This document shows, in pieces, positions 9,654 to 32,081 of a stretch of DNA of 34,104 nt. This DNA is from Alphaproteobacteria bacterium (GTDB taxonomy: Bacteria; Pseudomonadota; Alphaproteobacteria; Sphingomonadales; Emcibacteraceae), in NCBI GenBank assembly GCA_013152755.1, contig JAADFR010000024.1, positions 1 to 34,104 of the forward strand. Direction: 5' to 3'. Position 1 is the stretch's first letter; each line of letters begins with the position of its first letter. The position numbers and the translations under genes were made by a program. The notes beneath the pieces are model-generated. The model saw nothing but the letters and a program-made list of their open reading frames with translations, was not told the DNA's origin and did not search any database.

Positions 9654-9675
9654 GGTCGCAGACCTAGAGTTAATC

Positions 9676-10581: not shown

Positions 10582-10593
10582 CACAGATACCCT

Positions 10594-10627: not shown

Positions 10628-10641
10628 AGTATTGTGGAATG

Positions 10642-10671
10642 TTGAAAATATGGATAAGTTTGTCGGATAAT
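10642..10671 (+). promoter_or_regulatory. Putative sigma-70 promoter of operon B
   Basis: TTGAAA (10642-10647) and GATAAT (10666-10671) are 18 bp apart. A start near 10678 would place operator copy B at about -84 to -51, close to the footprint I recall for NahR at its promoters (about -82 to -47). Confidence 0.5.
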
Positions 10672-10710
10672 CATTTCAGATATGGCCTGCCATCGAAATC
10701 GGAGAATTCT

Positions 10711-10968: not shown

Positions 10969-10988
10969 CGCGCAGCAGGAGAGAGTAT

Positions 10989-11816
10989 ATGGCGGAAATC
11001 GTAAGCGGCTTTTTAATGCCTCATGATCCTTTGATCCCTTCAATGCCGGATGCGCCGCCCAAGGCACAGCAGGACGCCTGCCTTGGTGCCTATGCCACTA
11101 TTGTGGATCGGCTGCGGGCGCAAGAGGTGGATACGGTGGTGGTGATCGGGGATGATCATTATACCATCAATGGTCCCTATTGTATCCCACAGGCCATGAT
11201 CGGCATTGGTGATGTGGAAGGCCCTTGCGAGCCGTGGCTTGGCATTTCCCGGGAGAAAATCGAAAATAACGAAGCTTTGGCGCAGCATATCATGCAGCAT
11301 GGGCTGGATAATGGCGTTGACTGGACGGCGTCCAAGGCTCTGGTGGTTGATCATTCGGTGATGGTGCCGGTGCATTATGCGGTACGGCCCTTGGCCGGGG
11401 TCAGAACGATTCCAGTCTATATAAATTCAGGCATGGAGCCTTTGATCAGCAATTCACGGGCCTATGAAGTTGGCCAGTCGATTGGGCAGGCCATTGCGTC
11501 CTGGGACAAGGCGGAACGGGTTGCAATATTTGGTACTGGCGGCATCAGCCATTGGCCGGGCATGGCGGAAATGGGCCGGGTGAATGAACCGTGGGACCGC
11601 ATGATTATGGATTTGATTGTCAAAGGCGATCATGCGACCCTGATGGACCTCAGCGATGCGGATATATTACGGGATGGCGGCAATGGGGGTTTGGAGATCA
11701 AGAACTTCATCTGTGCCATGGGGGCCTTGGGCCAATGCCGGGGGGAGATCATCGCCTATGAAGCCGTGCCCGAATGGGTGGCAGGTTGCGGTTATATGGA
11801 ATTGAAAGCGGCATAA
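10989..11816 (+). CDS. LigB-like catalytic subunit of an extradiol dioxygenase (probable 1,2-dihydroxynaphthalene cleavage)
   Basis: This 275-residue protein has the LigB fold motifs: H12 in LMPHDP, H57 in VIGDDHYTIN, H122 in VVDHSVMVPVHY, and FGTGGISHWPG, expected around the Fe(II) site of class III extradiol dioxygenases. In place it would cleave 1,2-dihydroxynaphthalene to 2-hydroxychromene-2-carboxylate, because the isomerase for that product starts at the very next base. Classical Pseudomonas NahC is an unrelated vicinal-oxygen-chelate enzyme; class III enzymes do this type of job in the phn and car systems. The substrate is inferred from neighbours, not from sequence. Confidence 0.82.
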   Translation: MAEIVSGFLMPHDPLIPSMPDAPPKAQQDACLGAYATIVDRLRAQEVDTVVVIGDDHYTINGPYCIPQAMIGIGDVEGPCEPWLGISREKIENNEALAQHIMQHGLDNGVDWTASKALVVDHSVMVPVHYAVRPLAGVRTIPVYINSGMEPLISNSRAYEVGQSIGQAIASWDKAERVAIFGTGGISHWPGMAEMGRVNEPWDRMIMDLIVKGDHATLMDLSDADILRDGGNGGLEIKNFICAMGALGQCRGEIIAYEAVPEWVAGCGYMELKAA

Positions 11817-12431
11817 ATGAACGACAGGACATCCCCTAAAAAAGCGGCAATAGATTTCTATTTCGATTTTTTGAGTCCCTTTTCCTATCTTGCCCACCAT
11901 CGGTTGATGGGGGTTGCGGCCCGCTTTGGCCTTGATATTTCTTATTGGCCCCTTGAGCTGGCCCGGGCAAAGCTGGCCATCGGTAATAATGGCCCCACCA
12001 ACCGGGATTTGCCCATAAAGCTGGCCTATTTGACCAAGGACCTTGCCCGGTGGGCGGAGCGTCTTGATTTGCCGCTGATATTCCCACCTGGCTTTGCCAC
12101 CAACCTCATGAATAGCGGCACATTTTATGCCCGGAAAAAAGGCTGTGAGGCGGACTATGTCCGTCGGGCCTATCATTTGGTCTGGGGATTGGGGCGCGCG
12201 CCGGACGATGAGCAGGTCTTGCGGACATTGGCCCGGGAAATGGGGTGGGATGAAGATACGTTTCTGACATTCATCCGGTCGGAAGAGGCCCGCCGGGCGT
12301 ATGACCTCTCAACGGAAACGGCCATTGAAAACCATATTTTCGGTGTGCCGAGCATGTGTTACGGCGGGCAGACATGGTGGGGGAATGACCGGGTTGATTT
12401 TCTGGAAGAATATCTTGAGAAAAATCTTTAG
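11817..12431 (+). CDS. nahD: 2-Hydroxychromene-2-carboxylate isomerase (DsbA/kappa-GST fold)
   Basis: This 204-residue protein matches NahD in length (about 203) and in its N-terminal motif FYFDFLSPFSYLAHHRL, where S20 corresponds to the catalytic serine that activates glutathione (Ser11 in the Pseudomonas enzyme). It interconverts 2-hydroxychromene-2-carboxylate and trans-o-hydroxybenzylidenepyruvate. A later FGVPSMCYGGQTWWGNDR segment is typical of the family. The ATG abuts the TAA of the LigB-like gene, so the two are probably translationally coupled. Its product is the substrate of the aldolase at 5858, linking operons A and B. Confidence 0.9.
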   Translation: MNDRTSPKKAAIDFYFDFLSPFSYLAHHRLMGVAARFGLDISYWPLELARAKLAIGNNGPTNRDLPIKLAYLTKDLARWAERLDLPLIFPPGFATNLMNSGTFYARKKGCEADYVRRAYHLVWGLGRAPDDEQVLRTLAREMGWDEDTFLTFIRSEEARRAYDLSTETAIENHIFGVPSMCYGGQTWWGNDRVDFLEEYLEKNL

Positions 12432-12470
12432 GCCCCCTTTCTGCATACAGTGTTTCAGGAGTAGATGATT

Positions 12471-13115
12471 ATGGATTTATACGGCTTTTTCCGCAGTTCC
12501 GCATCCTACAGGTTACGGATTGCCCTGAACCTCAAGGGGTTGGACAGGACGGAACATTCGGTGCATCTGCGCCGGGGCGGCGGCGAACAATATTCACCGG
12601 AATTCAGGAAACTCAATCCTCAGGAATTGGTGCCGGTTCTGGTGGATGATGGCTTGACCCTGACCCAGTCTATGGCTATTCTTGAATATCTTGAGGAACG
12701 CTACCCCGAGGTTCCTTTGTTGCCCAAAGGGCTCGGCCCACGGGCAGAGGTTCGCAAGCTAGCCCAAGCCATTGCCTGTGACATTCATCCCATAAATAAC
12801 TTGCGGGTTTTGCAATATTTGACGGGTCCGGCGGGCCTGTCGGAGGAAGACAAGAACAATTGGATTTTGCACTGGGTCGGTATTGGCTTTCGGGCCTTGG
12901 AGACAGAGCTTGCCCGCTCAGATATGAGGGGGGACTATTGTGTGGGGGACAGCCCGACCATCGCCGACTGTTGCCTGATCCCACAGATATTCAACGCCAG
13001 ACGTTTCGGTCTGGATATGTCGGCCTATCCGACATTGGTAAAGATAGAAAACACCTGCGCGGCGCTTGGCGCGTTTCAGGATGCTCATCCTTCGAAACAA
13101 GATGATGCGGAATGA
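12471..13115 (+). CDS. nagL: Maleylpyruvate isomerase (zeta-class GST)
   Basis: This 214-residue protein is a zeta-class glutathione transferase. FFRSSASYRLRIALNLKG near residues 5-22 carries the serine-rich glutathione-activating motif, and the later LNPQELVPVLVDDG and LTQSMAILEYLEERYP segments are the conserved glutathione-binding part. I chose ATG 12471, 9 bases after AGGAG; the upstream in-frame ATG 12465 is only 3 bases away. In the nag pathway the enzyme isomerises maleylpyruvate to fumarylpyruvate. Maleylacetoacetate isomerase is the near relative, but gentisate genes are present and no homogentisate genes are. It is separated from nagI and nagK, which lie in operon A. Confidence 0.88.
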   Translation: MDLYGFFRSSASYRLRIALNLKGLDRTEHSVHLRRGGGEQYSPEFRKLNPQELVPVLVDDGLTLTQSMAILEYLEERYPEVPLLPKGLGPRAEVRKLAQAIACDIHPINNLRVLQYLTGPAGLSEEDKNNWILHWVGIGFRALETELARSDMRGDYCVGDSPTIADCCLIPQIFNARRFGLDMSAYPTLVKIENTCAALGAFQDAHPSKQDDAE

Positions 13116-13136
13116 TGTAACAGGAGAGAATGAAAG

Positions 13137-13808
13137 ATGAAAATATTAATGGTATTGACGTCCCATGATCAGTTGGGCGATACGGGGCTTAAAACTGGTT
13201 TCTGGCTGGAGGAATTTGCCTCGCCCTATTATATTTTCAAGGATGCCGGGGTGAAGATAACGCTTGCCTCACCAAAAGGGGGGCAGCCGCCTCTTGACCC
13301 CAAAAGCGATGAAGCGGATTTTCAAACGGACGCCACCCGGCGCTTTAAAGAGGATGCCGAAGCCCAAAAAATATTGGCCAATACGACGCGGCTGGATGCC
13401 ATAGATCCGGCGGATTTTGACGGGGTATTCTATCCCGGAGGTCACGGACCGCTGTGGGATTTATCAGAGGACAAAAATTCCATTGCCCTCATCGAAGCCT
13501 TTTATAACGGCGGCAAGCCCGTGGGGTTGGTGTGTCACGCGCCCGCTGTGCTGAAAAATGTGCGAAGTAAGGATGGTCGCCCCCTCGTACAGGGAAAACA
13601 GGTAACCGCTTTCACCAATACAGAAGAAGAAGCCGTACAATTAACAAAAATTGTTCCCTTTTTGGTGGAGGATATGCTGGTGGCTCATGGCGGCATTTTT
13701 GGCCGGGGTCCCGATTGGGAAAGCCATGTGGAAACAGAAGGTAATCTGATCACAGGTCAAAATCCGGCATCGTCAGAAGCCGTGGCCCGTAAACTTATCA
13801 TGCTTTAA
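13137..13808 (+). CDS. DJ-1/PfpI family protein (Hsp31-like)
   Basis: This 223-residue protein is a DJ-1/PfpI superfamily member of the class I glutamine amidotransferase-like type. The nucleophile elbow is GLVCHAPAVLKN with C133 and H134; an upstream acidic residue in GFWLEEFASPYYIF (about E26) would complete a triad as in Hsp31-type proteins. Such proteins have been linked to glyoxalase, deglycase or chaperone activity. It is the last gene of operon B, 21 bases after maleylpyruvate isomerase, and converges with the sigma-54 regulator gene. A role in protecting against reactive aldehydes or quinones is only a guess; no pathway step requires it. Confidence 0.8.
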   Translation: MKILMVLTSHDQLGDTGLKTGFWLEEFASPYYIFKDAGVKITLASPKGGQPPLDPKSDEADFQTDATRRFKEDAEAQKILANTTRLDAIDPADFDGVFYPGGHGPLWDLSEDKNSIALIEAFYNGGKPVGLVCHAPAVLKNVRSKDGRPLVQGKQVTAFTNTEEEAVQLTKIVPFLVEDMLVAHGGIFGRGPDWESHVETEGNLITGQNPASSEAVARKLIML

Positions 13809-13815: not shown

Positions 13816-15660
13816 CTATTTCCGTTTTTTAAGGCGGTAGTCCAGCCGTGCGCGGGTAATGCCCAACAGTTTTGCCGCGTTGCTGACATTGCCATTGGCG
13901 GTTTCCATGGCTTTGTCGATAATGATATTCTCCATCTGGTCGAGGGACAGGTCTTCTTCAAAAAAGGCTGCGGCAATATCTTCCGGAATATTATCTTCGT
14001 CGTAATCCATATTCGTCGGACCGCCAGCTTTGAGTTTCAGGCTTCCTTTCTGATCCAGTCTGAAGACCGATGAGGTCATCCTCTCGCCATAGGTAAACAG
14101 GTCACACAGGTCAATGGGGCCATTCTCAGAGGCCATGATGATGCCCCGCTCAATGACATTTTCCAACTCCCGAATATTGCCCGGCCATTCATAGCTTAAC
14201 AGGGCCTCTACGGCCTTGGATGTAAAGCCGGTTACATTCTTTTTATGGGTAATGATAAAGCGGTTCAGGAAAGTATCCATCAGCAGGGGAATATCATCCC
14301 GCCGTTCACGCAGGGGCGGGATACGGATGGGAAAGACATTCAGGCGGAAGAATAAATCCTCTCGGAAACGTCCGGCCTTTACTTCTTCATGGAGATCAAC
14401 ATTGGTCGCGGCAATGACGCGCACATTCACCCGTTTGGTGGTGGTGCTGCCCACTCGTTCTATTTCCCTTTCTTGCAAGACCCGTAACAACTTTCCCTGT
14501 GATGACAAGCTCAATGTGCCAGCTTCATCCAGAAAAATGGTACCATTATGGGCCAGTTCAAACCGCCCGGCGCGGGAGGTGACGGCCCCGGTGAAGGCAC
14601 CTTTTTCAACACCGAATAGCTCAGCCTCGATCAGACTGTCTGGAATAGCCGCACAATTGACCGCCACGAAGGGGGCGTCAACCCGGTTGCTGATCCGGTG
14701 GAGCGTTCGGGCAAACATCTCTTTACCTACGCCGGTTTCGCCTAGGAACAGAACGGTGGCATTGGTGGGGGCGACCCGGGACAACATATGACAGGCGGCG
14801 CTGAAACGGGCGGAAACGCCAACCATTTCAGTATAGGGGCTGGTGGTATCTTCCTTAACAGGTTTGGCATCCACATCCGGGGTATATTCATCCGGCGCTC
14901 TTACTCCCGGTGACAGGGGATAGGATTTTTTCTGGGCCGTGATGGGTTCCATATCCTCTACTTTTTTATTCACAAAAGGTTGGGATTGGAAATAAATCAG
15001 ATCATTTTCCGTATTGTCCCATTCGCTGACAGGCTTGCCGATGACCCGGCAGGTTTCATGACCAAGGGCGCTGCATTGTACTTCCCTGAATATTATGGGT
15101 CGTCCCATGAATATACTGCAATAACCGCTGGCATAACCGACTTGCATCCAGCAGACGGGTTCCGAACCAATGCCGTAATTGTTGATGTGGACCTCGCCCT
15201 CCGATGAATCCCGCCAGATAAACTCGCCGTAAAATTTACCCTTGGTGATGTCTATATCCAGTTTGACCGGCTCAACAATCACAATCCCTTCCAAGGCATG
15301 AAGCTGTGGCCCGGCCAGAAAGCGTTCCATTAGATCTTCCTTGTCGCCGCGCACCTTCATGGCCAGTTGCGCATCGCGCGTGCCGCATGAATAGCCCATG
15401 CGGGTCAACAGGCCACGTGCAGTTTTGATGCCCAGAGCCTCTATTAATTCTATACGCAGTGCCCCCATTGAATAGGAGTCAATAAGCAACATGCGTCTGT
15501 TATCCAGCCAGATACGGCCATTGTCCGGTGAAAAATGGAGCCTTTCCGCAAGATCTCCAATCTGGGGCATAAGAACAGATACTTCGGGGTCAACCAGTGG
15601 TTTTGGATTAAATACTCTTTTTTGATCTTCGGTCTCTGTATCTGAAGAGTAGATGGGCAT
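13816..15660 (-). CDS. XylR/DmpR-type sigma-54-dependent aromatic-responsive activator
   Basis: This 614-residue activator has three parts. Residues 20-210 form an XylR_N plus V4R sensor, including [15 protein letters not shown] and [20 protein letters not shown], which in XylR and DmpR binds the aromatic effector. Residues about 275-510 form an AAA+ domain with Walker A GETGVGKE (307-314), the sigma-54 contact loop GAFTGA (354-359) and Walker B FLDEA (376-380). The C-terminus is a Fis-type HTH ([20 protein letters not shown]). I chose ATG 15660, preceded by GAGAGG, over an in-frame TTG at 15675. It is divergent from the transporter-tmo operon, whose promoter is of the -24/-12 type, so toluene, benzene or phenols are likely effectors. 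Confidence 0.92.
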
Positions 15661-15697
15661 TCTATCGCCTCTCAAAGCTGTGATTGTTGTTCATCAT

Positions 15698-15918: not shown

Positions 15919-15935
15919 TTGGCATCTTCTTTGCA
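15919..15935 (+). promoter_or_regulatory. Sigma-54 (-24/-12) promoter of the transporter-tmo operon
   Basis: TTGGCATCTTCTTTGCA fits the consensus TTGGCACG-N4-TTGCW, with GG at 15921-15922 and GC at 15933-15934 in the required spacing. Transcription should start near 15946, about 60 bases before the first gene. It faces away from the sigma-54 activator gene. A near-identical copy precedes the alcohol dehydrogenase on the other strand (29455-29471). Confidence 0.82.
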
Positions 15936-16007: not shown

Positions 16008-17090
16008 ATGCCGATCGGGTTGTACTGGGGAAAAATACTCAAAAACAGGCATAACTGTTTATACAGTCTTTTGATGGTGCTTGGGATTCTTATGGTTGCT
16101 CAGTTGCCGTTACCGGCAATGGCCAATTCTGAAACTTCTCAGGACAAGCGGCTTGTGGCTGATAATCTGTTTGATGTGGATTTCATTGATACGCAACGGG
16201 GTTTGGCCTCAGGCTATTATGGTACCATTCTAAAAACCAGTGATGGCGGCGCCCATTGGGTCAGAATAGAAACAAATATCAAGGAATTGATCCGCAGACT
16301 TGATCTGGTCACAGCCGATAAGGGCTGGGCCGTTGGTCACCGGGGCAGTATTTTTCATACGGAAGACGGCGGGCTGAGCTGGAAAAAGCAGTTTCAGGTC
16401 AAGGGCGTTTATCTGCGTGATATTTCCTTTGCTTCGGAAAATACAGGCTGGGCCGTTGGTCAGAATATGACCATTCTCTATACAGGGGACGGCGGAAAAA
16501 CATGGCAGCAGCAAAAACTTACCGGCTTTAAGGGCCGCGATCTGCCGCGCCTGAACGGTGTTTTGGCCCTGAGCGAAACAACAGCTGTTTTGGTAGGTGA
16601 ATTTGGCGTGGTTGGCTACACAGCCGATGGGGGCGCGAATTGGCGGATTTTACCCTCGGGCATGGACACAACACTGACAACGCTTGCTCAAAGAGGGCAG
16701 GACGTCGTTGTTGTGGGCCTTGATGGTGTCGCCCTAGATGTCTCTTTGGGTGCAGAGCCCGTCGTTACCCCTCTTAATACCGGCGTCCACCAACATATTT
16801 TCGGCATTTCCTTTAACGGGGAAGGGCAGGGCATTGCTGTTGGCCGGACCATAATTTTACGGTTTGACGGGGACAAAATTATACCTGTTAAGGCGGACGA
16901 CAGTGTTATTTTGCCTTACCGCTGGTATCACGGCGTACAAATCCTGGATGACGGGCAGGTGATCGCCGTTGGTGCGCGGGGGGCCATTATTAAAACTGAT
17001 TCTCTGCAGGATGAATTTCGGAAAATAGCTCAGCTTGGTGATCCTGATACCGTGTCTGTTGCCGGTAAAGTAAAGAGTGAGGAGCAATAA
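16008..17090 (+). CDS. YCF48/Hcf136-like secreted beta-propeller protein
   Basis: This 360-residue protein starts with a signal peptide (hydrophobic LYSLLMVLGILMVAQL, probable cleavage after AMA near residue 39) and continues as BNR/YCF48-type repeats. Motifs such as ASGYYGTILKTSDGGAHW, GWAVGHRGSIFHTEDGG and GWAVGQNMTILYTGDGGKTW recur from about residue 64. It should be periplasmic. YCF48/Hcf136 proteins assist photosystem II assembly in phototrophs, but in heterotrophic proteobacteria they often accompany RND, DUF1302 and DUF1329 genes, as here. It is the first gene after the sigma-54 promoter, and only one base separates its stop from the RND start. Its role is unproven; helping to assemble the envelope complex is a reasonable guess. 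Confidence 0.82.
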   Translation: MPIGLYWGKILKNRHNCLYSLLMVLGILMVAQLPLPAMANSETSQDKRLVADNLFDVDFIDTQRGLASGYYGTILKTSDGGAHWVRIETNIKELIRRLDLVTADKGWAVGHRGSIFHTEDGGLSWKKQFQVKGVYLRDISFASENTGWAVGQNMTILYTGDGGKTWQQQKLTGFKGRDLPRLNGVLALSETTAVLVGEFGVVGYTADGGANWRILPSGMDTTLTTLAQRGQDVVVVGLDGVALDVSLGAEPVVTPLNTGVHQHIFGISFNGEGQGIAVGRTIILRFDGDKIIPVKADDSVILPYRWYHGVQILDDGQVIAVGARGAIIKTDSLQDEFRKIAQLGDPDTVSVAGKVKSEEQ

Positions 17091-17091
17091 A

Positions 17092-19482
17092 ATGGCTGCG
17101 CAAAGAATATCTAATTTTGTTGTACGTTACCCGGTCTGGTTTCTGGTTGTCATTATGAGCATTTCCTCATTTCTGGGCTATTATGCCTATAACGGCCTGT
17201 CGCTGAGGGTTGTGCTTGAGGAAATGATGCCGGTTGGCCGGACCAATGTACAATTGATCCAGAAATTCGGGGCCCAGTTTGGCGGTGCCAACAATGTGTT
17301 GATCGCCATTGAAAATGAAAAAGGCGATATATACAACACGGAATATCTGGAAACTTATATCAAAATTTCCGATGAGGTTTATTTTTATCCCGATACCATC
17401 CGCCATCTGGTGCAATCCTTGTCTTTGCAGAAAACTAAGGCCGTTACCGGGTCCGGTGGCCGGATTCAGATTGATGCATTGATGGCACGCGGCGCCCCGA
17501 AAACAGAGGCAGAAATTAGCCTTCTGCGCAAAAATGTGAATGCACAATATCGGGGTTTCCTAGTCTCAGATGATGAACGCTCTGCGATTATCATTGCCGA
17601 TTTCAAAGACAGTGTTGACTATGAGAAGGTGGTTGACCTGATTGATGGCTTTCGGGCTATGGCGGCTGAAAAAGGGATCAAGGTTTATGCGGCGGGCCGC
17701 CCGGTGTTGTTGGGGACAATCTATAAGGCCCTGAATAGAACCATGTTGATCCTGTTGGTCTCGGTCCTGCTCGTTGGCGTGATCCTGTTTGCCTATTTCC
17801 GTAATTTTATTGGTATCTTTGTGCCGATGCTCAGTGCGGGTATGGCGACGGTCTGGGGCTTGGGAGCCATGGGATTTGTGAATTATAATCTTGACCCGTT
17901 GTTGATCTTGTTGCCGGCGTTTATTTTTGCCATTGTATTATCGCATAGCGTTCAGTTTATCTCACGGGTTATCGAGGAATTTGAAGAACATCACCACATG
18001 AGAGATGCGGTCCGTCACGGGCTTGCCAAGCTGATGTTCCCGAGCATGGCGGCCATTGTGACCGATGCGGCTGGCTTTACGGTTCTGGTTCTGGTGGGGA
18101 TCCCCAGTATTCAGGCACTGGCGCTGATTTGTACCGTCTGGTTATTGTCAATCGGGCCGTCACTGGTTTTCTCGGCGGCGCTGCTGTGCATCCTGCCCCG
18201 GCCAAAAACATATCGGCTGGGAGTTCATTTGGTTGAAAAATTCTGGTCTCTGTTAAATTTGGAACGCCATGCGGGTGCGATGGTGTTGATAAGTTTTGTG
18301 GCCTTGGGCGTTGGCCTTGTGGGCGCGAGCCGTCTGACCATCGGGGATGCCACCGGTAGTCCCATATTATGGCCAGAAGACCGCTATAATCAGGATACGG
18401 AAGTGATCAACAAAGACTTCTCGGCCTTGGGGACTGATTTGATGCAGGTCTATATTGAGGGCGGCGAGAATACCATGCTGGACCCGGCCGTATATCACCG
18501 GATCGAAGCCATGGACCGGTTTGTGTATGAAACGGTACCACAAGCCCGTCCGGCCCAAAGCCTTGTGGGTATTATCAAGAAGATCAACAGCGTGTTGAAC
18601 GAGGGCGATCCCAGCTATGAACTTATTCCAGATACGGCAGAAGAAATCGGTTTTGACATCTATATGTTCCGCTCCAAGGGCGAACCAGGTGACTTTGCGG
18701 CCTACACCAACCCGGAATGGCAGATCGGTAACATCACGATACCGGTAAAGGATCATGCCAGTCAGACGGTGGATAAGGTAATCGGGCAGGTCGCCAAATT
18801 CCTTGATAATGCGCCGAAGCTGGAAAATGGCGCGGAGTTTCTTTATGCGGGCGGGCAGATTGGTATTGCCCGGGCTTTGAATGATGAAATACGCGATTCC
18901 AATACCAAGGTGATGCTGGCCATTGTGGCCGTTATCGCGGTTTGTGTGTTCATTCTCTATCGTTCCGTGACCATCGGTTTGGTCCTGATTTTAAGCCTCG
19001 CGGTGGCCAACTTTATTACCTATGCCTTCATGGCATTCAAGGGTATCGGCTTGAGTGTCAATACCTTGCCTCTAACGGCATTGGGTATCGGGCTTGGGGT
19101 GGATTACGGCATTTATATGCTGGATCGTATTCGGGAGGAAAGCGGCCTGCACAGCAGCAATTACGAGGCGGTGCGTGAAGCCATCAAAACCTCTGGCAAT
19201 GCGATATTCGTTACGGCCATGACCATGGTTCTGCCATTGGTGCCGTGGTTCATGTTTTCTACTTTGCGTTTTCAGGCAGAAATGGGCCTTCTGCTTGGGA
19301 TGGTGTTGTTTCTTAACATGGTCGGAGCATTGGTTTTTGTTCCGGCGGCGGTCCTGTATTTGAAGCCAAAAGCAATTTTTGGTGATCCGGCGTCGAGAGA
19401 AAATGGCAATGAACCGGATGCCAAGGAGGACGGTTCGGTAATGCGTAAAATCATTCAGCATCAGGGGGCAGGTGCAGAATAA
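17092..19482 (+). CDS. RND/MMPL-family inner-membrane transporter
   Basis: This 796-residue integral membrane protein has the duplicated RND layout: one helix near 15-33, a periplasmic domain to about 215, a five-helix block at 217-370, a helix near 396-415, a second periplasmic domain, and a final helix block that includes TALGIGLGVDYGIYMLDRI. It is of the shorter MMPL/HAE-like type, not the roughly 1,000-residue AcrB type. I chose ATG 17092, with GAGGAG upstream, over an in-frame GTG at 17077 that overlaps the previous gene. RND pumps use the proton gradient to move hydrophobic molecules; direction here is unknown. No membrane-fusion protein or TolC homologue is in the window. Confidence 0.88.
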   Translation: MAAQRISNFVVRYPVWFLVVIMSISSFLGYYAYNGLSLRVVLEEMMPVGRTNVQLIQKFGAQFGGANNVLIAIENEKGDIYNTEYLETYIKISDEVYFYPDTIRHLVQSLSLQKTKAVTGSGGRIQIDALMARGAPKTEAEISLLRKNVNAQYRGFLVSDDERSAIIIADFKDSVDYEKVVDLIDGFRAMAAEKGIKVYAAGRPVLLGTIYKALNRTMLILLVSVLLVGVILFAYFRNFIGIFVPMLSAGMATVWGLGAMGFVNYNLDPLLILLPAFIFAIVLSHSVQFISRVIEEFEEHHHMRDAVRHGLAKLMFPSMAAIVTDAAGFTVLVLVGIPSIQALALICTVWLLSIGPSLVFSAALLCILPRPKTYRLGVHLVEKFWSLLNLERHAGAMVLISFVALGVGLVGASRLTIGDATGSPILWPEDRYNQDTEVINKDFSALGTDLMQVYIEGGENTMLDPAVYHRIEAMDRFVYETVPQARPAQSLVGIIKKINSVLNEGDPSYELIPDTAEEIGFDIYMFRSKGEPGDFAAYTNPEWQIGNITIPVKDHASQTVDKVIGQVAKFLDNAPKLENGAEFLYAGGQIGIARALNDEIRDSNTKVMLAIVAVIAVCVFILYRSVTIGLVLILSLAVANFITYAFMAFKGIGLSVNTLPLTALGIGLGVDYGIYMLDRIREESGLHSSNYEAVREAIKTSGNAIFVTAMTMVLPLVPWFMFSTLRFQAEMGLLLGMVLFLNMVGALVFVPAAVLYLKPKAIFGDPASRENGNEPDAKEDGSVMRKIIQHQGAGAE

Positions 19483-19515
19483 TATTAATTAACAAAGCTA
19501 AAGGGAGCTAGAATA

Positions 19516-21372
19516 ATGAAACTGACAAAACTTAAAGCAGGTCTGCTTGGGGTAACGGCAATGGGGATATGTGCAACATCCGCTATGGCCGCCATCGAGG
19601 GCGAAAACTGGTGGATTGGCGGGCGAATTAAACAGGGTTTTTCCCTCGCCTATGATTTGGAGAATAACGGGGCCTCCAAAGGACCATCTAACTTTCTCTT
19701 GGAAGTCAGGGGGAATTGGCGCCCGACAAACAGTATCACCATTAAGGCTGATGTGTGGTTGCGGGGGGACTGGTACGCTGATATCGGCAGTGACATCAAA
19801 CAGGGTGGGATACAGGATTTTACCTCGCCGGGTTTTGTTGGTCAATTTGGCTTTAACATTAATGGTAATGGCGCAGGTTTTCCGGGCGAGCCCTTTGGGT
19901 CGCGGCCAACGGCTAATCGCTTCTTTTCCGATTTCAATGATGAAATGCTTCGGGAACTGTCCATTCAGTTTAAAGACCCGGAAGGGCGTTTCTCTTTAAA
20001 AGTCGGTAAATTCCAACGCGGCTGGGGGCAATCAGACGGCTTGAGACTGCTGGATGTTCTTAATGCGCAGGATCTGCGGGAACGTTTTGTACTCAGAGAT
20101 GCCGAGGATGTTCGTATTCCGGCCTGGACTGCGGCTCTGAATTTGAATTTCCGTCGCATGGGATTGTCCAAGCCTTTTGAAGCAATCGGCATGAAAAGAA
20201 CATCTCTTGAATTGATCTTTATGCCCGAAGTTCGCCATAGCAAATTTGTTATTAATAACCCGACAAGCGGGGCCACATCCGGCGGCATTTTTGGTTTTCC
20301 CTATCCGCGATTACTGGATAGTAAATCGGGTCTGGGCACGGCCTTCTTTGGTACCAACCTTACAGATAACGCCCCGGATAAATTCAGTTTTAGCGATCCT
20401 AACCTTGCCGCACGCCTGAAATTTGAAGCCTTTGGCGGGGATATGACTTTGAACTGGCTCTATGGCCATCAGGAGTTGCCGGTTACATCATTACAGGGTG
20501 CAAATCTGCTGCTTGGAACAGCTTTGAATGATGAACGTCAGGCCACGGCGGTTATCCCATTAACATTGGATCAAGGCTTGGGCGCGGCCCATGCGCCGGG
20601 TCAGTATCTGGACTTCTTGCGGTCATTGGTATCGGCGCCGGGTAGTGTGCCCTTTCCGCTGGCACCGTTCGGCTGTACCAGCCCGCTGGTAGGGGCGCCG
20701 AATTGTTCCCTGAACTATAATTTTAACCTTGATTATGATTTCCGCAAGAAACTGGTGGGCGGCAGCTTTACCCGGGAGATCAGTGAATTGAGACTGGGCC
20801 CGAAAAATGTGTCCCCCGTATTGCGGACAGAATTCTCCTATGAGTTTGACAAGCCTTTCAATACATCACGGGTGATCACGCCTTTCGGTGAAGAAGAAAA
20901 TGGGACAACGGCTTTGGTGAGTGCGCCGTCCAGTTCTATCGTTTTCCGGGATCAATGGTCAGTGATGGTCGGGGTTGATTACTTCCTGTGGTTGCCCTTC
21001 CTGAAGAACCAGCGCGGGTCAATCTTTACCAGTGCCCAGTTCTTTAACATCCATACCAACAATTCGGATAACCTATTGTATCAGGCCCCTTATGCCGCGA
21101 TCGATTCACGGGTGAACAAGAACCAGCAATTTGCCACATTATTATGGAACTTTGCCTTGTATAAGGAAAAACTGTTCATTGAGGGATTGAGTGTGTGGGA
21201 TATTTCTTTCAAAGGTTTCACCCATCGTCAGCGTATCGACTTCAATTTCTTTGGTGATACTTTCCGGCCCCGTCTGGAATGGATACATGTATCCGGGAAG
21301 AAAGAGCAGGGACTTCTCGGCTTCTTTAAGAACAGCGATATTATTGAAGCATCACTGACCGTACAATTTTAA
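19516..21372 (+). CDS. DUF1302 family outer-membrane protein
   Basis: This 618-residue protein has a signal peptide (MKLTKLKAGLLGVTAMGICA, probable cleavage after SAMA near residue 24) followed by a long stretch rich in alternating aromatic and polar strands. It ends in DIIEASLTVQF, with the terminal phenylalanine typical of outer-membrane beta-barrels. The sequence agrees with the DUF1302 family, which usually sits beside DUF1329 genes, as here. A porin-like channel for hydrophobic or aromatic compounds is the likely role, inferred from its place between an RND transporter and the monooxygenase genes. Confidence 0.83.
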   Translation: MKLTKLKAGLLGVTAMGICATSAMAAIEGENWWIGGRIKQGFSLAYDLENNGASKGPSNFLLEVRGNWRPTNSITIKADVWLRGDWYADIGSDIKQGGIQDFTSPGFVGQFGFNINGNGAGFPGEPFGSRPTANRFFSDFNDEMLRELSIQFKDPEGRFSLKVGKFQRGWGQSDGLRLLDVLNAQDLRERFVLRDAEDVRIPAWTAALNLNFRRMGLSKPFEAIGMKRTSLELIFMPEVRHSKFVINNPTSGATSGGIFGFPYPRLLDSKSGLGTAFFGTNLTDNAPDKFSFSDPNLAARLKFEAFGGDMTLNWLYGHQELPVTSLQGANLLLGTALNDERQATAVIPLTLDQGLGAAHAPGQYLDFLRSLVSAPGSVPFPLAPFGCTSPLVGAPNCSLNYNFNLDYDFRKKLVGGSFTREISELRLGPKNVSPVLRTEFSYEFDKPFNTSRVITPFGEEENGTTALVSAPSSSIVFRDQWSVMVGVDYFLWLPFLKNQRGSIFTSAQFFNIHTNNSDNLLYQAPYAAIDSRVNKNQQFATLLWNFALYKEKLFIEGLSVWDISFKGFTHRQRIDFNFFGDTFRPRLEWIHVSGKKEQGLLGFFKNSDIIEASLTVQF

Positions 21373-21395
21373 TAAAGAAATAAAAGGAGAGACTA

Positions 21396-22808
21396 ATGAA
21401 ACGTCGTTTTTTAAAAAGTGTTGCTGCGGCGGCATTAATATCAACATTAAGTATGGCGGCTCAGGCCGGTGAAAAATGGGTAGATGACTGGAAAGCATTT
21501 GCCGAAAAAACCGGTGAAGCGAAACATGCCGAATGGGCCAAGCTGATCGGGGATCCGGAATCAGTGAAGTTGGCCAAGGAATGGGCAGAGCTTCGTGGAT
21601 ATACCGCGTCAAGCCTGATTGAAAAGGCTAATCTGCCAGCGGAATTAAAACCGGGTCTGGTCATCAATAAAGACAATATTGACAGCTTTCCCTGGTTGAA
21701 AGACTATCTGCCACAAGCGTCCATGGATCGGCTGAAGTCCAGCGAATGGTTTAAATGGGGTGAAATCGTTATTGTGCCGACCAATTCCTATTATATGTCT
21801 CGGGGCGTATTGGAGGCGACCCGCAAAGCACAGAAAGATGGCCGCAAGCTGAATGCGACGGCAAAGGGTAACCTGCTGACCGAAGATGGTAAACATGCCT
21901 TTTTGGTTCAGAATGATGTGGTGCCGTTTCTTCATCCCAAAGATGGCACGGAATTGAACTGGACACAGGCTTTCCATTCCATTGGCGGTGATAACCTGGC
22001 CTTTAAGCATTTTGACCTGAAGGTTTGTAACAGCTCGAACAAGGTGGAGCGGGAATATTCAGCCGATCTATTCTGGGCCAAATTCCATAACCGTACGGAT
22101 TATGCCCCTCTGGGGTCTATGCCCGGAGAGGAAACAGCTGTTGAAGGCGGTTCTGTTTATTTCTTGAAACCCCTTGATATTCGCGGTCTGTCAGCGGTGC
22201 GTATCCGTTATGCGGATGTGGATAAGGATGATAACTTCCGGGTGTTCATTCCAAGCCTGCGCCGTACACGTACACTTGCCGGCTCAGACGGACAGGATCC
22301 TATGGCCGCTGGTCTGGAGATTACCTGGGATGACTGGCGCGGGTATTGGACCAAGACGGACCCACGCAAGTTTGAATATAAAATGGTTGGCGAAGGTTTT
22401 GTTCTCGGGCAACCTGATACGGGTCATGTTTATGTACCCATTGTTGAAAATGAGAATGGCTGTGAGGTAAAGCAGATCGAGCTTGAATTGCGCCCTGTCT
22501 GGATATTGGAAGTGAATGACAAAACCGGTCAGTATCTCTATTCCAAGCGTAAGCTCTATATCGACAAGGAAAACTACTATCAACAGTATCAGGAAATGTA
22601 TGACCGTCGTGGCAACCTGTTCCGTATTTGGGATGATTCCCGGGATTTCGACCCCAAGACAGGTCAGGCACAATGGCGTGAAGTTCTGAACTGGAACCCG
22701 ATTAGTAACCGGATGACCCATATGAATATGAATTCTTCATGGGAAACATTGAAGAAAGGCCTTGCGCCATCCTTGTTTGACATCGACGAACTGCGGGATT
22801 ACCGCTAG
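21396..22808 (+). CDS. DUF1329 family periplasmic protein
   Basis: This 470-residue protein has a signal peptide with probable cleavage after AAQA near residue 24 (MKRRFLKSVAAAALISTLSM is the first part). The mature protein matches the DUF1329 family as I know it, including YADLFWAK-like and RRTRTLAGSDGQDPMAAGLE segments and a tryptophan- and tyrosine-rich C-terminal half. The family is thought to have a LolA-like fold able to carry hydrophobic ligands through the periplasm. It lies 23 bases after DUF1302 and 39 bases before tmoA. A periplasmic shuttle between the DUF1302 barrel and the RND protein is inferred, not demonstrated. Confidence 0.83.
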   Translation: MKRRFLKSVAAAALISTLSMAAQAGEKWVDDWKAFAEKTGEAKHAEWAKLIGDPESVKLAKEWAELRGYTASSLIEKANLPAELKPGLVINKDNIDSFPWLKDYLPQASMDRLKSSEWFKWGEIVIVPTNSYYMSRGVLEATRKAQKDGRKLNATAKGNLLTEDGKHAFLVQNDVVPFLHPKDGTELNWTQAFHSIGGDNLAFKHFDLKVCNSSNKVEREYSADLFWAKFHNRTDYAPLGSMPGEETAVEGGSVYFLKPLDIRGLSAVRIRYADVDKDDNFRVFIPSLRRTRTLAGSDGQDPMAAGLEITWDDWRGYWTKTDPRKFEYKMVGEGFVLGQPDTGHVYVPIVENENGCEVKQIELELRPVWILEVNDKTGQYLYSKRKLYIDKENYYQQYQEMYDRRGNLFRIWDDSRDFDPKTGQAQWREVLNWNPISNRMTHMNMNSSWETLKKGLAPSLFDIDELRDYR

Positions 22809-22847: not shown

Positions 22848-24347
22848 ATGGCATTACTTAACAGGTCTGACTGGTATGACATTGCGCGCGATACCAACTG
22901 GACTCCCAAATATGTAACCGAAGAAGAGCTTTTCCCCAAGGAAATGAGTGATTGTTTCGATGTTCCTCGTGAGAAGTGGGAAACTTACGATGAGCCCTAC
23001 AAAACGTCTTATCGGGAATATGTTAAGGTACAGCGAGAAAAAGATGCCGGTGCCTACTCCGTGAAAGCGGCGCTTGGGCGTATGAAATTCCTTGATTCTG
23101 CAGATCCGGGTTGGAAATCCATATTGAAACTTCATTACGGCGGTATTGCCCTTCAGGAATATGCCGCCGGAATGGCCGAGGCAACCATGGCCCGTTTTGG
23201 CCGGGCGCCGGGTATGCGGAATATGGCGACCTTTGGTCTTCTGGATGAAACCCGTCATGGCCAGATACAGCTTTATTTCCCCCATGAATATGTCAGTAAA
23301 GACCGGCAATTTGATTGGGCCCATAAAGCCATGCACTCCAATGACTGGGCCGCCATTGCTACCCGTCATGCCTTTGCCGATATTATGAGTGGGCGCGATG
23401 CGACTTCTGTGGCGCTGATGTTGACCTTCGCCTTTGAAACGGCCTTTACAAATATGCAGTTTCTGGGGCTGGCGGCCGATGCCGCAGAGGTTGGCGATGT
23501 GACCTTCTCAAATCTGATTTCCAGTATTCAGACGGATGAGGCCCGTCATGCCCAGATCGGAACACCGGCCCTTAAAATCCTCATTGAGAATGGGCATAAA
23601 GAAAAAGCTCAGAAGCTGGTGGATATTGCCTTCTGGCGTAATTGGCGCCTATTTGCTGTAGTAACCGGACCTTCTATGGATTATTACACACCGCTGGCCA
23701 AACGTGAAAAATCTTTCAAGGAATTTATGGTTGAATGGATTGTGGGTCAGTTTGAACGGAATATTCTTGATATTGGTCTTGATGTACCATGGTATTGGGA
23801 CACATTCCTCGAAGATCTGAATACGACCCATCACGGAATGCATCTTGGCGTCTGGTATTGGCGTCCTACCGTATGGTGGGATCCTGCCGCCGGAGCTTCA
23901 CCTGATGAGCGTGATTGGCTTGAGGAGAAATACCCCGGTTGGAATGACACTTACGGCAAATGCTGGGATGTGATTATCGACAATATCAAAAATGGTCGTG
24001 AAGACCTGACATTACCGGAAACCCTGCCCATCGTGTGCAACATGAACCATCTGCCCATTGTGGGTGTGCCGGGCAAGAAATGGGACGTAAGGGACCATTA
24101 TCTGGACTACAAGGGACGGCGCTATCACTTTGGTTCCAAAGTGGATCGGTGGGTCTTTGAACAGGATCCGGATCGTTATGCGGGACATCAAGGTCTCATT
24201 GACCGTTTCCTCGCAGGTAAAATTCAGCCGGCAAATCTGGAAGGGGCGCTTAAATATATGGGCCTTCAACCGGAAGATTGTGGCAAGGATGCCCATGATT
24301 ATGCCTGGGTCTGGAATTACAACAAACCCGACAAAGTCGCGGTTTAG
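22848..24347 (+). CDS. tmoA: Toluene monooxygenase, hydroxylase alpha subunit
   Basis: This 499-residue protein is the diiron subunit of a group 2 soluble monooxygenase and matches TmoA of toluene 4-monooxygenase over its full length as I recall it. All six iron ligands fall at the classical positions: E104, E134, H137, E197, E231 and H234, with T201 and phenylalanines F176, F196 and F205 also kept. Two pocket or entrance positions differ: residue 103 is Q (G in T4MO, E in ToMO) and residue 285 is K (D in T4MO). It should hydroxylate toluene, benzene or phenols in the cytoplasm with the other tmo subunits. Exact substrate and ring position cannot be predicted. Confidence 0.94.
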   Translation: MALLNRSDWYDIARDTNWTPKYVTEEELFPKEMSDCFDVPREKWETYDEPYKTSYREYVKVQREKDAGAYSVKAALGRMKFLDSADPGWKSILKLHYGGIALQEYAAGMAEATMARFGRAPGMRNMATFGLLDETRHGQIQLYFPHEYVSKDRQFDWAHKAMHSNDWAAIATRHAFADIMSGRDATSVALMLTFAFETAFTNMQFLGLAADAAEVGDVTFSNLISSIQTDEARHAQIGTPALKILIENGHKEKAQKLVDIAFWRNWRLFAVVTGPSMDYYTPLAKREKSFKEFMVEWIVGQFERNILDIGLDVPWYWDTFLEDLNTTHHGMHLGVWYWRPTVWWDPAAGASPDERDWLEEKYPGWNDTYGKCWDVIIDNIKNGREDLTLPETLPIVCNMNHLPIVGVPGKKWDVRDHYLDYKGRRYHFGSKVDRWVFEQDPDRYAGHQGLIDRFLAGKIQPANLEGALKYMGLQPEDCGKDAHDYAWVWNYNKPDKVAV

Positions 24348-24362
24348 GACAGGAGAACAGAA

Positions 24363-24617
24363 ATGACAACAGTACCTTTATGCGTCAACTTTGAAAGTGA
24401 CTTCGTATTGCAACTGGTTCCTGTGGAAAGTGATTTTACCATGGATCAAGTCGCAGAAGCGGCGGCTCATCATTCCCTGAACCGGCGGGTTAAACCACAA
24501 CCGGGGCGGACATTACGGGTCCGCCTGCAGGATGGCGATGCCCCGTTTGACCGTGATGCCACGGTTGAACAGAGCGGATTTCAGGTGATGGAAACCATCG
24601 AAGTTTATTACGAATAA
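24363..24617 (+). CDS. tmoB: Toluene monooxygenase, hydroxylase gamma subunit
   Basis: This 84-residue protein is the TmoB-type gamma subunit, with the usual length. The motif LQLVPVESDFTMDQVAEAAA and the RPQPGRTLRVRLQDG-like segment (here VKPQPGRTLRVRL) are characteristic. It has a ubiquitin-like fold and packs on the alpha-beta hydroxylase core; it has no cofactor. It is 15 bases after tmoA and has AGGAG upstream of its start. Confidence 0.9.
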   Translation: MTTVPLCVNFESDFVLQLVPVESDFTMDQVAEAAAHHSLNRRVKPQPGRTLRVRLQDGDAPFDRDATVEQSGFQVMETIEVYYE

Positions 24618-24648
24618 GTATTTGGATTAAAGAAAAGATAGAAGACCT

Positions 24649-24984
24649 ATGGCTTTTACAAAAGTATGTTCTCTGGATGATTTATGGGAAGGTGAGATGG
24701 AACTTTATGACGTGAATGGACATGAAGTTCTGATCATCCACGGCGACGGGGGCTATGTCCGTGCCGTGCAGGGGATCTGCCCGCATCAGGAAATTCCCCT
24801 GGTGGAGGGAACCCTTCAGGGGAAGACCCTTACCTGCCGCGCACATCTATGGCAATTTGATGTGGAGGCCGGAGAGGGCATAAATCCCACGGGCTGCAAG
24901 TTGGCTATTTATCCGGCAGAGATACGGGATGACAATATTTTTGTGGATGTTGAGGGGATAGAACCCTTTTATACCTCCGCCTGA
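24649..24984 (+). CDS. tmoC: Toluene monooxygenase Rieske ferredoxin
   Basis: This 111-residue Rieske ferredoxin binds a [2Fe-2S] cluster through C44 and H46 (CPHQEIP) and C63 and H66 (CRAHLW). It carries electrons from the TmoF reductase to the diiron hydroxylase. It starts MAFTKVCSLDDLWEGEM, like T4moC. The ribosome-binding site is weak (GAAGA upstream). It is distinct from the operon A ferredoxin at 3998, so the window encodes two Rieske ferredoxins for two oxygenase classes. Confidence 0.92.
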   Translation: MAFTKVCSLDDLWEGEMELYDVNGHEVLIIHGDGGYVRAVQGICPHQEIPLVEGTLQGKTLTCRAHLWQFDVEAGEGINPTGCKLAIYPAEIRDDNIFVDVEGIEPFYTSA

Positions 24985-25024
24985 CGGGTCTGATATTTTA
25001 AATGATTTTCCAGGAGATAATTAC

Positions 25025-25336
25025 ATGACGACAAATATAAAAGACATACACAAGCATAATCGGGTCGGGCCAATTTTTCGCGGGGGGGAATTGGCGACGG
25101 CGGCCATAGATGCCCTGGAAGAAGATAATCCTGATAAAGAATTTACCATAGAAGACCGCGCGGCTTATATCCGCGTGGAAACAGACCATGAATGTATTAT
25201 CCGGCGCAAGACCATGGAAGAAATTCTGGGTCGTCCTTTTGAGATGCAGGAACTGGAAGTGATTCTGGGTTCATTCTCAGGTCAGATCGAGGCAGAGCAG
25301 GAATATGTCCGTTTTTATTTTGATACCAAAATATAG
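25025..25336 (+). CDS. tmoD: Toluene monooxygenase effector protein
   Basis: This 103-residue protein matches the cofactor-less effector (TmoD/MmoB family) that binds the hydroxylase and tunes catalysis. Recognisable segments are HNRVGPIFRGGELATAAIDA near residues 11-30, AYIRVETDHECIIRR, and EEILGRPFEMQELEVIL. A clear AGGAG precedes the start. The order tmoC-tmoD-tmoE is as in Pseudomonas mendocina. Confidence 0.92.
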   Translation: MTTNIKDIHKHNRVGPIFRGGELATAAIDALEEDNPDKEFTIEDRAAYIRVETDHECIIRRKTMEEILGRPFEMQELEVILGSFSGQIEAEQEYVRFYFDTKI

Positions 25337-25360
25337 ACGCAGTAAATAAAGGAAATCAAT

Positions 25361-26356
25361 ATGTCAGAAACAGCACAAAAATTAAAACCATTAAAAACCT
25401 GGAGCCACCTGAGTAAAAACAGGCGCCGGCCCAGTGAATATGAAATTGTCTCCGTGGGGCTGCATTTCAGCACCAATGATCCTGACTGTGCATGGGAACA
25501 GGATGCCGGTACATTTATGAATCAATGGTACCGTGACTACCGGGAAGGCAGTCCGGTAAATCATGAGGATTGGGACACATTTCGTGACCCTGATGAGCTG
25601 GTTTACCGTACCTATAATATCATTCAGGATGGTCAGGAAAACTATGTTGATGGTCTGATCAAGGAATTTGATGATCTGGAACATGATCAGGGATTGCAGA
25701 CAGAATGGGTGGATGCCCTTTCAAAGCTCTATACGCCAGGCCGTTATATATTGCATGGCCTGCAAATGGCATCAGTATATCTGGCCAAGATGGCCCCGGC
25801 CAGCACCATAACGAACTGCGCCACGTTTCAGGCGGCAGACAGCCTGCGCTGGTTATCCCATATAGCTTACCGGACCAAACAGCTTTCTCTGGTCTGGCCG
25901 GATTATGGCTTTGTGGATAATGAAAAGCATATCTGGGAAAATGCCCCGCATTGGCAGGGTTTCCGGGAGTTGCTTGAAAAAGCCTTGATTGCCTATGACT
26001 GGTGTGAAACTTTTGTCGCCATCAATCTGGTGCTGAAACCAGCGTTTGATGAGGCCTGCCTGCGTCAGTTGGGTCATGCGGCCCGACGTTTTGATGACAG
26101 CTTCCTGGGCTTCCTTACCGATGCACAGGCCGTTGATAGTCAGCGTTCCCGCCGTTGGACATCCAGTCTGGTTCAGTTTTTACAACAAAATGAAGCCAAT
26201 CAGGATGTTCTTGACGGCTGGGTTGAAAAATGGGTTCCATTGGGAGATCAGGCCATTGATATGTTCTGCGCTGCCTTGCCCGACAGCCCGTCCGCCGCTG
26301 ATGATGCCAAGAGGGATTGTTGGTCTTTCCGGGCTGGTCTTGGCCTTTCGGCTTGA
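25361..26356 (+). CDS. tmoE: Toluene monooxygenase, hydroxylase beta subunit
   Basis: This 331-residue protein is the beta subunit of the hydroxylase (TmoE is about 327 residues). It has the ferritin-like helical fold of the alpha subunit but lacks the diiron ligand set. Recognisable segments are LKTWSHLSKNRRRPSEYEIV at 10-29, the HGLQMASVYLAKMAPASTI helix, and the FLTDAQAVDSQRSRRW region. It lies 24 bases after tmoD and 17 bases before tmoF. Confidence 0.92.
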   Translation: MSETAQKLKPLKTWSHLSKNRRRPSEYEIVSVGLHFSTNDPDCAWEQDAGTFMNQWYRDYREGSPVNHEDWDTFRDPDELVYRTYNIIQDGQENYVDGLIKEFDDLEHDQGLQTEWVDALSKLYTPGRYILHGLQMASVYLAKMAPASTITNCATFQAADSLRWLSHIAYRTKQLSLVWPDYGFVDNEKHIWENAPHWQGFRELLEKALIAYDWCETFVAINLVLKPAFDEACLRQLGHAARRFDDSFLGFLTDAQAVDSQRSRRWTSSLVQFLQQNEANQDVLDGWVEKWVPLGDQAIDMFCAALPDSPSAADDAKRDCWSFRAGLGLSA

Positions 26357-26373
26357 GCTAGGGGAGAATATCT

Positions 26374-27390
26374 GTGCATAAAATTGAGGTCGAAGGTTTA
26401 AATACCTCTTTTGACTGTCAGGAGGGGGATACGCTTGTCCGCGCAGCCTTGCGAGCCGGAATTGCGTTTCCTTATGAATGTAATGTGGGCCAATGTGGCA
26501 GCTGTCGTTTTGAAGTCATAGAGGGTGATGTTGAGGCGTCATGGGCGGAGGCTCCGGCATTAACCCCGCGCGATTTGCGTAAGGGCAAGAAGCTGGGCTG
26601 TCAGTCAAAACCACAATCTGATTGTAAAATAAAGGTTAGGATTGATCAGAATTGCATCCCTCATTTTCGGCCACAGGCCAGAGCAGCAGAGTTGGTGTCT
26701 GTACGCGACGTTACCCATGATTTGCGGGAGTTCCATTTTAAATCAGATGGGAAGGCCGAGTTTATACCGGGTCAATATGCCTTGATGGCCTTGCCGGGGG
26801 TGGAGGGTCCAAGAGCCTATTCCATGAGTAATCAACCCAATGACGAAGGCGACTGGTGTTTCCTAATCAAGAAGGTGCCGGGCGGTGTTGGTACGGACTA
26901 TCTTTTTGATGACTTGAAAAAGGGTGATAAAATCACGTTGGACGGCCCCTATGGGCTGGCCTATTTCCGCGAGGATACGGACCGGGATATTGTTTGCGTT
27001 GCTGGTGGTTCGGGCTTGGCCCCTCTGATTTCCATCGCTACGGCGGCGGCCTATCATCCGGCCTTTCAAAACAGGCGCATCCGTTTCTTCTTTGGTGGAC
27101 GGGGTCCTGCGGATATTTGCGGAGATGATTATCTGCGGTTGTTGCCTGGCTTCGGGGACCGCATAACCTTTCATTCGACTATTTCAGTGCCGGAAATGGA
27201 TCCCAACGGGATGTGGGTGGGGCCGGTTGGCTTTATCCATGAATCTGTGGAGAATCTTTTAGGGGACGACCTGAAAAATTATGAATATTACATTGCCGGA
27301 CCACCGCCCATGTTACAGGCCACATTGCAAATGCTGGCCATGAAGCACAAGGTGAATGTGGAAGGCATACATTTTGACAGATTCTTTTAA
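26374..27390 (+). CDS. tmoF: Toluene monooxygenase NADH:ferredoxin oxidoreductase
   Basis: This 338-residue reductase has a plant-type [2Fe-2S] domain with C36, C41, C44 and C76 (CNVGQCGSC and LGCQS), then an FAD domain with RAYSMSN (147-153) and an NAD domain with GGSGLAPL (211-218). It would pass electrons from NADH to the Rieske ferredoxin TmoC. The start is GTG, preceded by GGGGAG. It is the last gene of the operon, followed by a strong terminator 83 bases later. As the only recognisable ferredoxin reductase in the window, it might also reduce the operon A ferredoxin; that is a guess. Confidence 0.93.
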   Translation: MHKIEVEGLNTSFDCQEGDTLVRAALRAGIAFPYECNVGQCGSCRFEVIEGDVEASWAEAPALTPRDLRKGKKLGCQSKPQSDCKIKVRIDQNCIPHFRPQARAAELVSVRDVTHDLREFHFKSDGKAEFIPGQYALMALPGVEGPRAYSMSNQPNDEGDWCFLIKKVPGGVGTDYLFDDLKKGDKITLDGPYGLAYFREDTDRDIVCVAGGSGLAPLISIATAAAYHPAFQNRRIRFFFGGRGPADICGDDYLRLLPGFGDRITFHSTISVPEMDPNGMWVGPVGFIHESVENLLGDDLKNYEYYIAGPPPMLQATLQMLAMKHKVNVEGIHFDRFF

Positions 27391-27472: not shown

Positions 27473-27508
27473 AGGCCTGATATCTTATGATGTCAGGCCT
27501 TTTTTTTT
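27473..27508 (+). terminator. Strong intrinsic terminator of the transporter-tmo operon
   Basis: AGGCCTGATATC (27473-27484) pairs with GATGTCAGGCCT (27489-27500), a 12-bp stem with one G-U pair, around a TTAT loop, followed by a run of eight Ts. It lies 83 bases after tmoF and only a few bases from the end of the convergent hydrolase gene. A smaller hairpin (27407-27424) without a T-run precedes it. Confidence 0.93.
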
Positions 27509-32075: not shown

Positions 32076-32081
32076 TATATT

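Follow-up and report, generated by a model that had tools for sequence, protein, structure and literature searches.

A four-gene envelope transport cassette heads the toluene-oxidising operon of a marine alphaproteobacterium. In the DNA stretch analysed here (34,104 nucleotides, hereafter the window), genes for a YCF48-like protein, an RND/MMPL transporter, an outer-membrane protein and a DUF1329 protein follow one another in this order. All four open reading frames are present between an exact sigma-54 promoter and tmoA, as the first-pass annotation had described, and the gaps within the tetrad and then up to tmoA amount to 1, 33, 23 and 39 bases, which agrees with the 1 to 39 bases given there, when the RND gene is taken to start at the ATG at 17092. 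This ATG lies behind an AGGAG and is probably the start, rather than the GTG at 17077 that opens the frame; the gap of a single base follows from that placement.

Operon layout and the four envelope proteins

The operon ends in tmoABCDEF (22848-27390, plus strand), a complete set of six genes in the order A to F that includes TmoB, the Rieske protein TmoC and the MmoB-like TmoD. Its domain content and the match of TmoA to the ToMO/T4MO hydroxylase over the full length, with solved ToMO/T4MO chains as the closest ones, place it among the toluene/o-xylene-type four-component diiron monooxygenases. The predicted sigma-54 (-24/-12) promoter at 15920-15935 (plus strand) reads TGGCATCTTCTTTGCA, an exact instance of TGGCAY-N5-TTGCW, and stands ahead of the tetrad, not ahead of tmoA; only two such exact matches occur in the window, against a chance expectation of 0.10 for its whole length. 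Divergent from the operon runs the gene of a XylR/DmpR-type sigma-54-dependent activator (13816-15675, minus strand) with XylR_N, V4R, Sigma54_activat and HTH_8 domains, so that the -24/-12 promoter is combined with a divergent XylR_N/V4R/AAA+ activator as in sigma-54 aromatic-responsive (XylR/DmpR) operons. An intrinsic terminator with a 12-bp stem followed by T8 (27473-27500, plus strand) closes the operon after tmoF. Sigma-70-like and terminator-like sites in the window are, taken as a whole, at chance level, and of the latter only the strong one after tmoF was used. With a single promoter ahead of the tetrad and a single terminator behind tmoF, an envelope module that spans both membranes and the periplasm could be cotranscribed with tmo, in agreement with the first-pass annotation, and we infer that it is.

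The second exact sigma-54 site (29455-29470, minus strand) lies before alcohol dehydrogenase/hydrolase genes, and is predicted to serve a second operon that probably belongs to the same regulon. Elsewhere in the window, positions 543-13808 carry genes for two Rieske dioxygenases, a LigAB-type ring-opening dioxygenase, a hydratase-aldolase-like protein, a DsbA-fold protein, a GST and a LysR regulator, and by these families the cluster looks like a bicyclic or aromatic-acid pathway. At 29755-34014 (minus strand), genes for the MadL/MadM malonate transporter subunits stand beside those for an amidase and an AMP-binding enzyme; this region may possibly serve malonate or malonamide use, unrelated to the tetrad.

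The first tetrad gene (16008-17090, plus strand) encodes an exported, AmeC-like beta-propeller with one N-terminal hydrophobic stretch, which scores 82 bits against PF14870 (cut-off 27) and is matched by solved Ycf48 proteins at E 1e-18. The second (17092-19482, plus strand) encodes the AmeD-like RND/MMPL inner-membrane transporter, with 133 bits for PF03176 (MMPL; cut-off 20.5) and MmpL3, MexB and HpnN among its solved relatives. It is nearest to HAE3, the score of 174.4 bits for TIGR00921 lying under the curated cut-off of 351.9, yet at the top among all NCBIfam models. The fourth gene (21396-22808, plus strand) encodes an AmeB-like, LolA-like periplasmic protein that reaches the gathering scores of both PF07044 (DUF1329; 92.0 bits, cut-off 23.1) and PF17131 (LolA_like; 49.5 bits, cut-off 30), and its profile matches the LolA-like solved chains 9tp6, 3bk5 and 4z48.

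The third gene (19516-21372, plus strand) encodes an AmeA-like, outer-membrane beta-barrel-like protein with a signal-peptide-like N-terminus and F as its last residue, as in outer-membrane barrels. The label DUF1302 given to it at first pass stands as a distant relationship and fails as a Pfam assignment: no Pfam match was found even at E = 10, so that the gathering score of DUF1302 (PF06980) is not reached, whereas the profile of seven orthologues, compared with one built from sixteen DUF1302 proteins of other cassettes, matched it along 401 columns that reach the C-terminus (hhalign probability 98.9%, E = 1.2e-17). Judged by these profiles, the protein is a strongly diverged, distant DUF1302 relative. 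A search of its profile against the PDB returned no solved relative, three weak hits being judged chance. Modelled with AlphaFold, the DUF1329 protein reached a mean pLDDT of 39.7 from 5 sequences and the outer-membrane protein one of 26.5 from 3, both too low for use.

Counted from the GTG at 17077, the RND protein carries a His at position 290 in TM4, which is shared by 82 of the 89 aligned RNDs, and an Asp at position 676 in TM10, which is present in all 89. The remaining seven rows have Asp at 290 and belong to another layout, with a short LolA-like partner and without YCF48. MmpL3-type pumps have Asp in both TM4 and TM10. The combination of TM4 His and TM10 Asp is, on this alignment, a usable signature of these RNDs. 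The simpler related layout (L030, L249-L255) places the short LolA-like protein beside the RND, mostly together with an outer-membrane protein, and again lacks YCF48; TM4 Asp is found in its RNDs except in L252.

Relatives of the cluster and of the module

The complete arrangement recurs, in the same order and spacing, in a different genus of the family (G016, L025), where an activator 82% identical to that of the window stands before the operon and the identities are 51% for YCF48, 75% for RND, 70% for the outer-membrane protein, 67% for DUF1329 and 82% for TmoA. In a genus-mate (G014, L024) the cluster is cut by contig ends, and regulator, YCF48 and RND are 93-99% identical. From a TmoA alignment scan of GTDB genomes, the best 80 of 434 loci were taken. 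Among these 80, a full tetrad lies directly upstream of tmoA at two loci, namely in Robiginitomaculum sp. NORP17 (L057; complete synteny, 93-100%) and in a Chromatiales MAG (L056; complete synteny, RND 74% identical). At the 58 tmo loci with at least 7 kb upstream, again from the best 80 of 434, the tetrad is found twice, DUF1329 four times and a FadL relative 26 times. PF03349 (FadL) was not detected in the window's own genome (95.5% complete), in G013 or in G016. This absence is not general, since FadL relatives are present in the NORP17 genome, which holds a near-identical cluster, and in the Chromatiales genome as well.

Parts of the tetrad also occur beside tmoA. DUF1302 and DUF1329 adjoin it in Pseudomonas benzenivorans (L058), the pump being absent there, and DUF1329 alone lies beside it in Zavarzinia aquatilis (L123), where a 203-aa ORF between the two was judged spurious by eye and dropped. 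Zavarzinia and its relatives (L177, L180, L182, L183, L185 and L123) have a window-type DUF1329 beside phenol hydroxylase, meta-cleavage or tmoA genes and no RND pump, as if DUF1329 alone could serve the monooxygenase.

A second tetrad of the same gene order lies on contig 58 of the same genome (L029:916-17231). It diverges from a XylR/DmpR-type regulator 57% identical to that of the window, and is followed by DsbA-like and GST genes, the phenol hydroxylase genes dmpKLMNOP and a catechol 2,3-dioxygenase-like gene. The same layout is found in G013, G015, G016 and G017 and, up to the contig ends, partly in G036; G011 and G018 have match positions that are consistent with it. Before YCF48, 10-11 of the 11 sigma-54 consensus positions are found in the window and in nine related clusters of both kinds. 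In a single genome, a tetrad precedes each of the two diiron monooxygenases through which toluene would pass in turn; going by established knowledge of such systems, these steps would presumably lead from toluene to cresol (tmo) and from cresol to methylcatechol (phenol hydroxylase).

RND relatives at E <= 1e-50 were found in 75 of 397 sampled Pseudomonadota genomes. The expectation that the four families recur together holds, as all four lie within 8 kb at 50 of the 62 sampled RND places; 39 of the 62 show the Ame order and 3 the window order. That they do so chiefly near catabolic genes is a weaker claim than it had appeared, because the commonest families among 94 flanking ORFs of 24 non-redundant cassette places are aminopeptidase N, glutamate dehydrogenase, short-chain dehydrogenases and AMP-binding enzymes, and only two of the 62 places (L191 and L192) adjoin a diiron monooxygenase. 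With housekeeping genes (aminopeptidase N, glutamate dehydrogenase) as the commonest flanks and so few diiron monooxygenases nearby, the cassette is a recruited general envelope system, not one specific to aromatic oxidation. Conservation independent of aromatic oxidation, which the first-pass annotation had named as the outcome that would tell against its proposal, is thus seen for the module overall and not for the two monooxygenase-linked clades.

These clades emerged when 89 RND proteins, without the reference AmeD sequence, were placed in a tree by a quick IQ-TREE search, in which the 14 monooxygenase-linked RNDs form two groups with SH-aLRT 100 each. The first comprises the window-type RNDs with tmo or, in G078, with phenol hydroxylase, together with one G078 copy without a nearby monooxygenase; the second comprises the contig-58-type RNDs with phenol hydroxylase. 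The genome of the window holds one copy from each group. Three label changes are required on the tree versus 13.3 for shuffled labels, a contrast that is helped by near copies. The window RND falls into a supported clade of its own, apart from the large Ame-order group, and the deeper branching order, with its long branches, is unsure.

Comparison with described systems

The suggestion made at first pass that the tetrad is an undescribed system is ruled out by AmeABCD, the apolar monoterpene efflux system of Castellaniella defragrans 65Phen, which consists of the same four families (DUF1302 outer-membrane protein, DUF1329, YCF48-like protein and RND) and has a deletion phenotype (PMC6394551). 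AmeABCD is located among catabolic genes for an apolar hydrocarbon and is expressed on its substrate (PMC6394551), and the window tetrad likewise stands beside such genes. When ame is deleted, the cells grow less well on apolar monoterpenes, tolerate them less and accumulate slightly more Nile Red, the latter effect being small and real-time efflux the same, and on acetate with limonene growth falls only at high limonene (PMC6394551). The order DUF1302-DUF1329-YCF48-RND is described as conserved for the Ame lineage (PMC6394551), whereas the window has YCF48-RND-DUF1302-like-DUF1329. Unlike AmeABCD, moreover, the window tetrad is placed inside a sigma-54 monooxygenase operon, and its outer-membrane protein has diverged beyond Pfam. 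By its four adjacent families and its differing order, the tetrad is to be classed as a variant of the AmeABCD-type tetrapartite RND cassette and not as AmeABCD itself. The new part seems to be the recruitment: the tetrad is coupled to two kinds of monooxygenase operon, in two separate clades, and its outer-membrane partner is a diverged one.

Other described clusters share the families in part or in full. The 'Nanopod' cluster of benzene-degrading ORM2 Desulfobacterota likewise has DUF1329, YCF48, MMPL and a porin-like protein, is highly expressed on benzene and has been proposed to transport it, the direction being left open; it differs from the window in its anaerobic host, two extra genes and the lack of a monooxygenase operon (PMC13101534). 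In P. putida, PP_0765/PP_0766 and PP_2018/PP_2019 likewise supply DUF1302, DUF1329, a periplasmic protein and an RND-type transporter, all needed for Tween 20 use and with predicted contacts reported, but from two separate loci not tied to an oxygenase (PMC10866462). DUF1302 and DUF1329 are listed without analysis in a Zoogloea oleivorans phenol-hydroxylase cluster (PMC7012976), and an RND and a BNR-repeat gene lie near a catechol dioxygenase in P. veronii (PMC11052242). The order YCF48-MMPL-DUF1302-DUF1329 is identical in a cassette on plasmid 2 of Aromatoleum aromaticum EbN1, whose RND (33% identical) is the best plasmid match; in contrast to the window, this cassette lies within a beta-oxidation-like operon without a diiron monooxygenase. 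In other tmo operons, FadL/TodX-type toluene porins fill the envelope-transport place, but these are single outer-membrane proteins of another Pfam family, without an inner-membrane pump or a periplasmic carrier.

Hickey 2012 is reportedly the source cited for an association of phnL genes with oxygenases. PMC3958437 already states that phnL-type genes associate with oxygenases, and reports slower phenanthrene growth and fewer outer-membrane vesicles upon disruption of phnL (YCF48) in Delftia. A Delftia DUF1329 deletion that impairs phenanthrene growth according to PMC13101534 was not used here; the paper cited for it describes, in the text searched, the phnL (YCF48) disruption instead. Among the open-licence papers searched, we found none that combines three of the cassette terms with toluene monooxygenase.

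Proposed function and its alternatives

The likeliest of the readings, which we put at even odds, is that an AmeABCD-kind tetrapartite RND envelope transporter was recruited to form the promoter-proximal half of the tmo operon, where it would clear the inner membrane of toluene and cresols by proton-coupled efflux. The XylR/DmpR-type regulator would be activated by toluene or a related effector, and sigma-54 polymerase would then transcribe the tetrad and the monooxygenase together. Powered by the proton gradient (TM4 His290 and TM10 Asp676-Tyr677), the RND protein would pull hydrophobic aromatics and cresol-type products out of the inner membrane, with the YCF48 propeller docked on the pump. 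The LolA-like DUF1329 protein would ferry the ligand through the periplasm to the DUF1302-like barrel, by which it would pass the outer membrane, and as a result the membrane load would stay tolerable while the monooxygenase works. Gene content and order, a promoter and a terminator common to tetrad and tmo, conservation, phylogeny and the residue signature can be read directly; we infer proton coupling, the ligand, the sequence in which it is handed over and, most of all, that it moves outward. The earlier, broader proposal of a likely role in either hydrocarbon uptake or efflux is supported.

RND relatives of known direction (MmpL3, MexB and HpnN) export; by analogy with such RND/MMPL pumps, and with the tolerance phenotype of the ame mutant, we favour efflux. 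Against efflux stand the FadL-less state of the window's own genome and the TM4 change from Asp to His, which leaves proton coupling conjectural. The small Nile Red effect and the unaltered real-time efflux of the ame mutant count against it as well (PMC6394551). Loss of parts in relatives also hurts growth on monoterpenes, Tween 20 and phenanthrene, which uptake would explain too (PMC6394551, PMC10866462 and PMC3958437).

A serious rival, though somewhat unlikely, is that the tetrad is an uptake machine replacing FadL/TodX-type porins, in which the barrel would take up the aromatic, DUF1329 would carry it, and RND/YCF48 would insert it into or move it across the inner membrane, feeding TmoA. 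FadL occurs in 26 of 58 tmo loci, yet PF03349 is absent from the own genome, G013 and G016, as would suit such a replacement; on the other hand, the NORP17 and Chromatiales genomes do have FadL relatives. Toluene, moreover, crosses membranes by itself, and the export direction of the characterised RND proteins argues against uptake as well. Relatives that lose parts grow worse on poorly soluble substrates, and the benzene 'Nanopod' paper leaves the direction open (PMC13101534), both of which would be compatible with uptake, but the growth drop of the ame mutant is confined to high limonene, as with a tolerance defect (PMC6394551).

We consider it quite improbable that the tetrad exports or rearranges lipid (membrane repair, vesicles or surface hydrophobicity) for a life with solvents, the aromatic not being the cargo. 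Such envelope upkeep would fit the fact that most relatives are not near catabolic genes. MmpL3 and HpnN are lipid movers, and DUF1329 is LolA-like. The Delftia YCF48 mutant phnL loses outer-membrane vesicles (PMC3958437). Nevertheless, in two clades the tetrad has become part of a monooxygenase operon whose regulator is of an aromatic-responsive type, and a general lipid role would not call for such a link. A chance or recent neighbourhood, in which tetrad and tmo share a promoter and no joint function, is extremely improbable and in its simple form rejected, for although few tmo loci have the tetrad (2 of 58, from the best 80 of 434), a second genus of the family (RND 75%) and a Chromatiales MAG (74%) show the same order and spacing, a second clade makes the same link with phenol hydroxylase, and the promoter precedes the tetrad and not tmoA.

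A wider reading, which we hold to be unlikely, would make the monooxygenase-linked tetrads a distinct, substrate-committed branch of the Ame type, by which soluble diiron monooxygenases would be fed with BTEX and phenols or have their supply metered. DUF1329 would then be a periplasmic carrier of aromatic hydrocarbons, and FadL-less hosts would possess a dedicated envelope route for toluene, with an RND that has TM4 His where MmpL3-type pumps have Asp. Ame-type cassettes are widespread; here, the adjacent enzyme names the likely ligand. Two clades have made the same kind of link, and with a likely ligand named by the enzyme, efflux versus uptake could therefore become decidable for the whole kind with a defined substrate. 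The tetrad may also be the reason why a FadL porin is dispensable for some toluene degraders.
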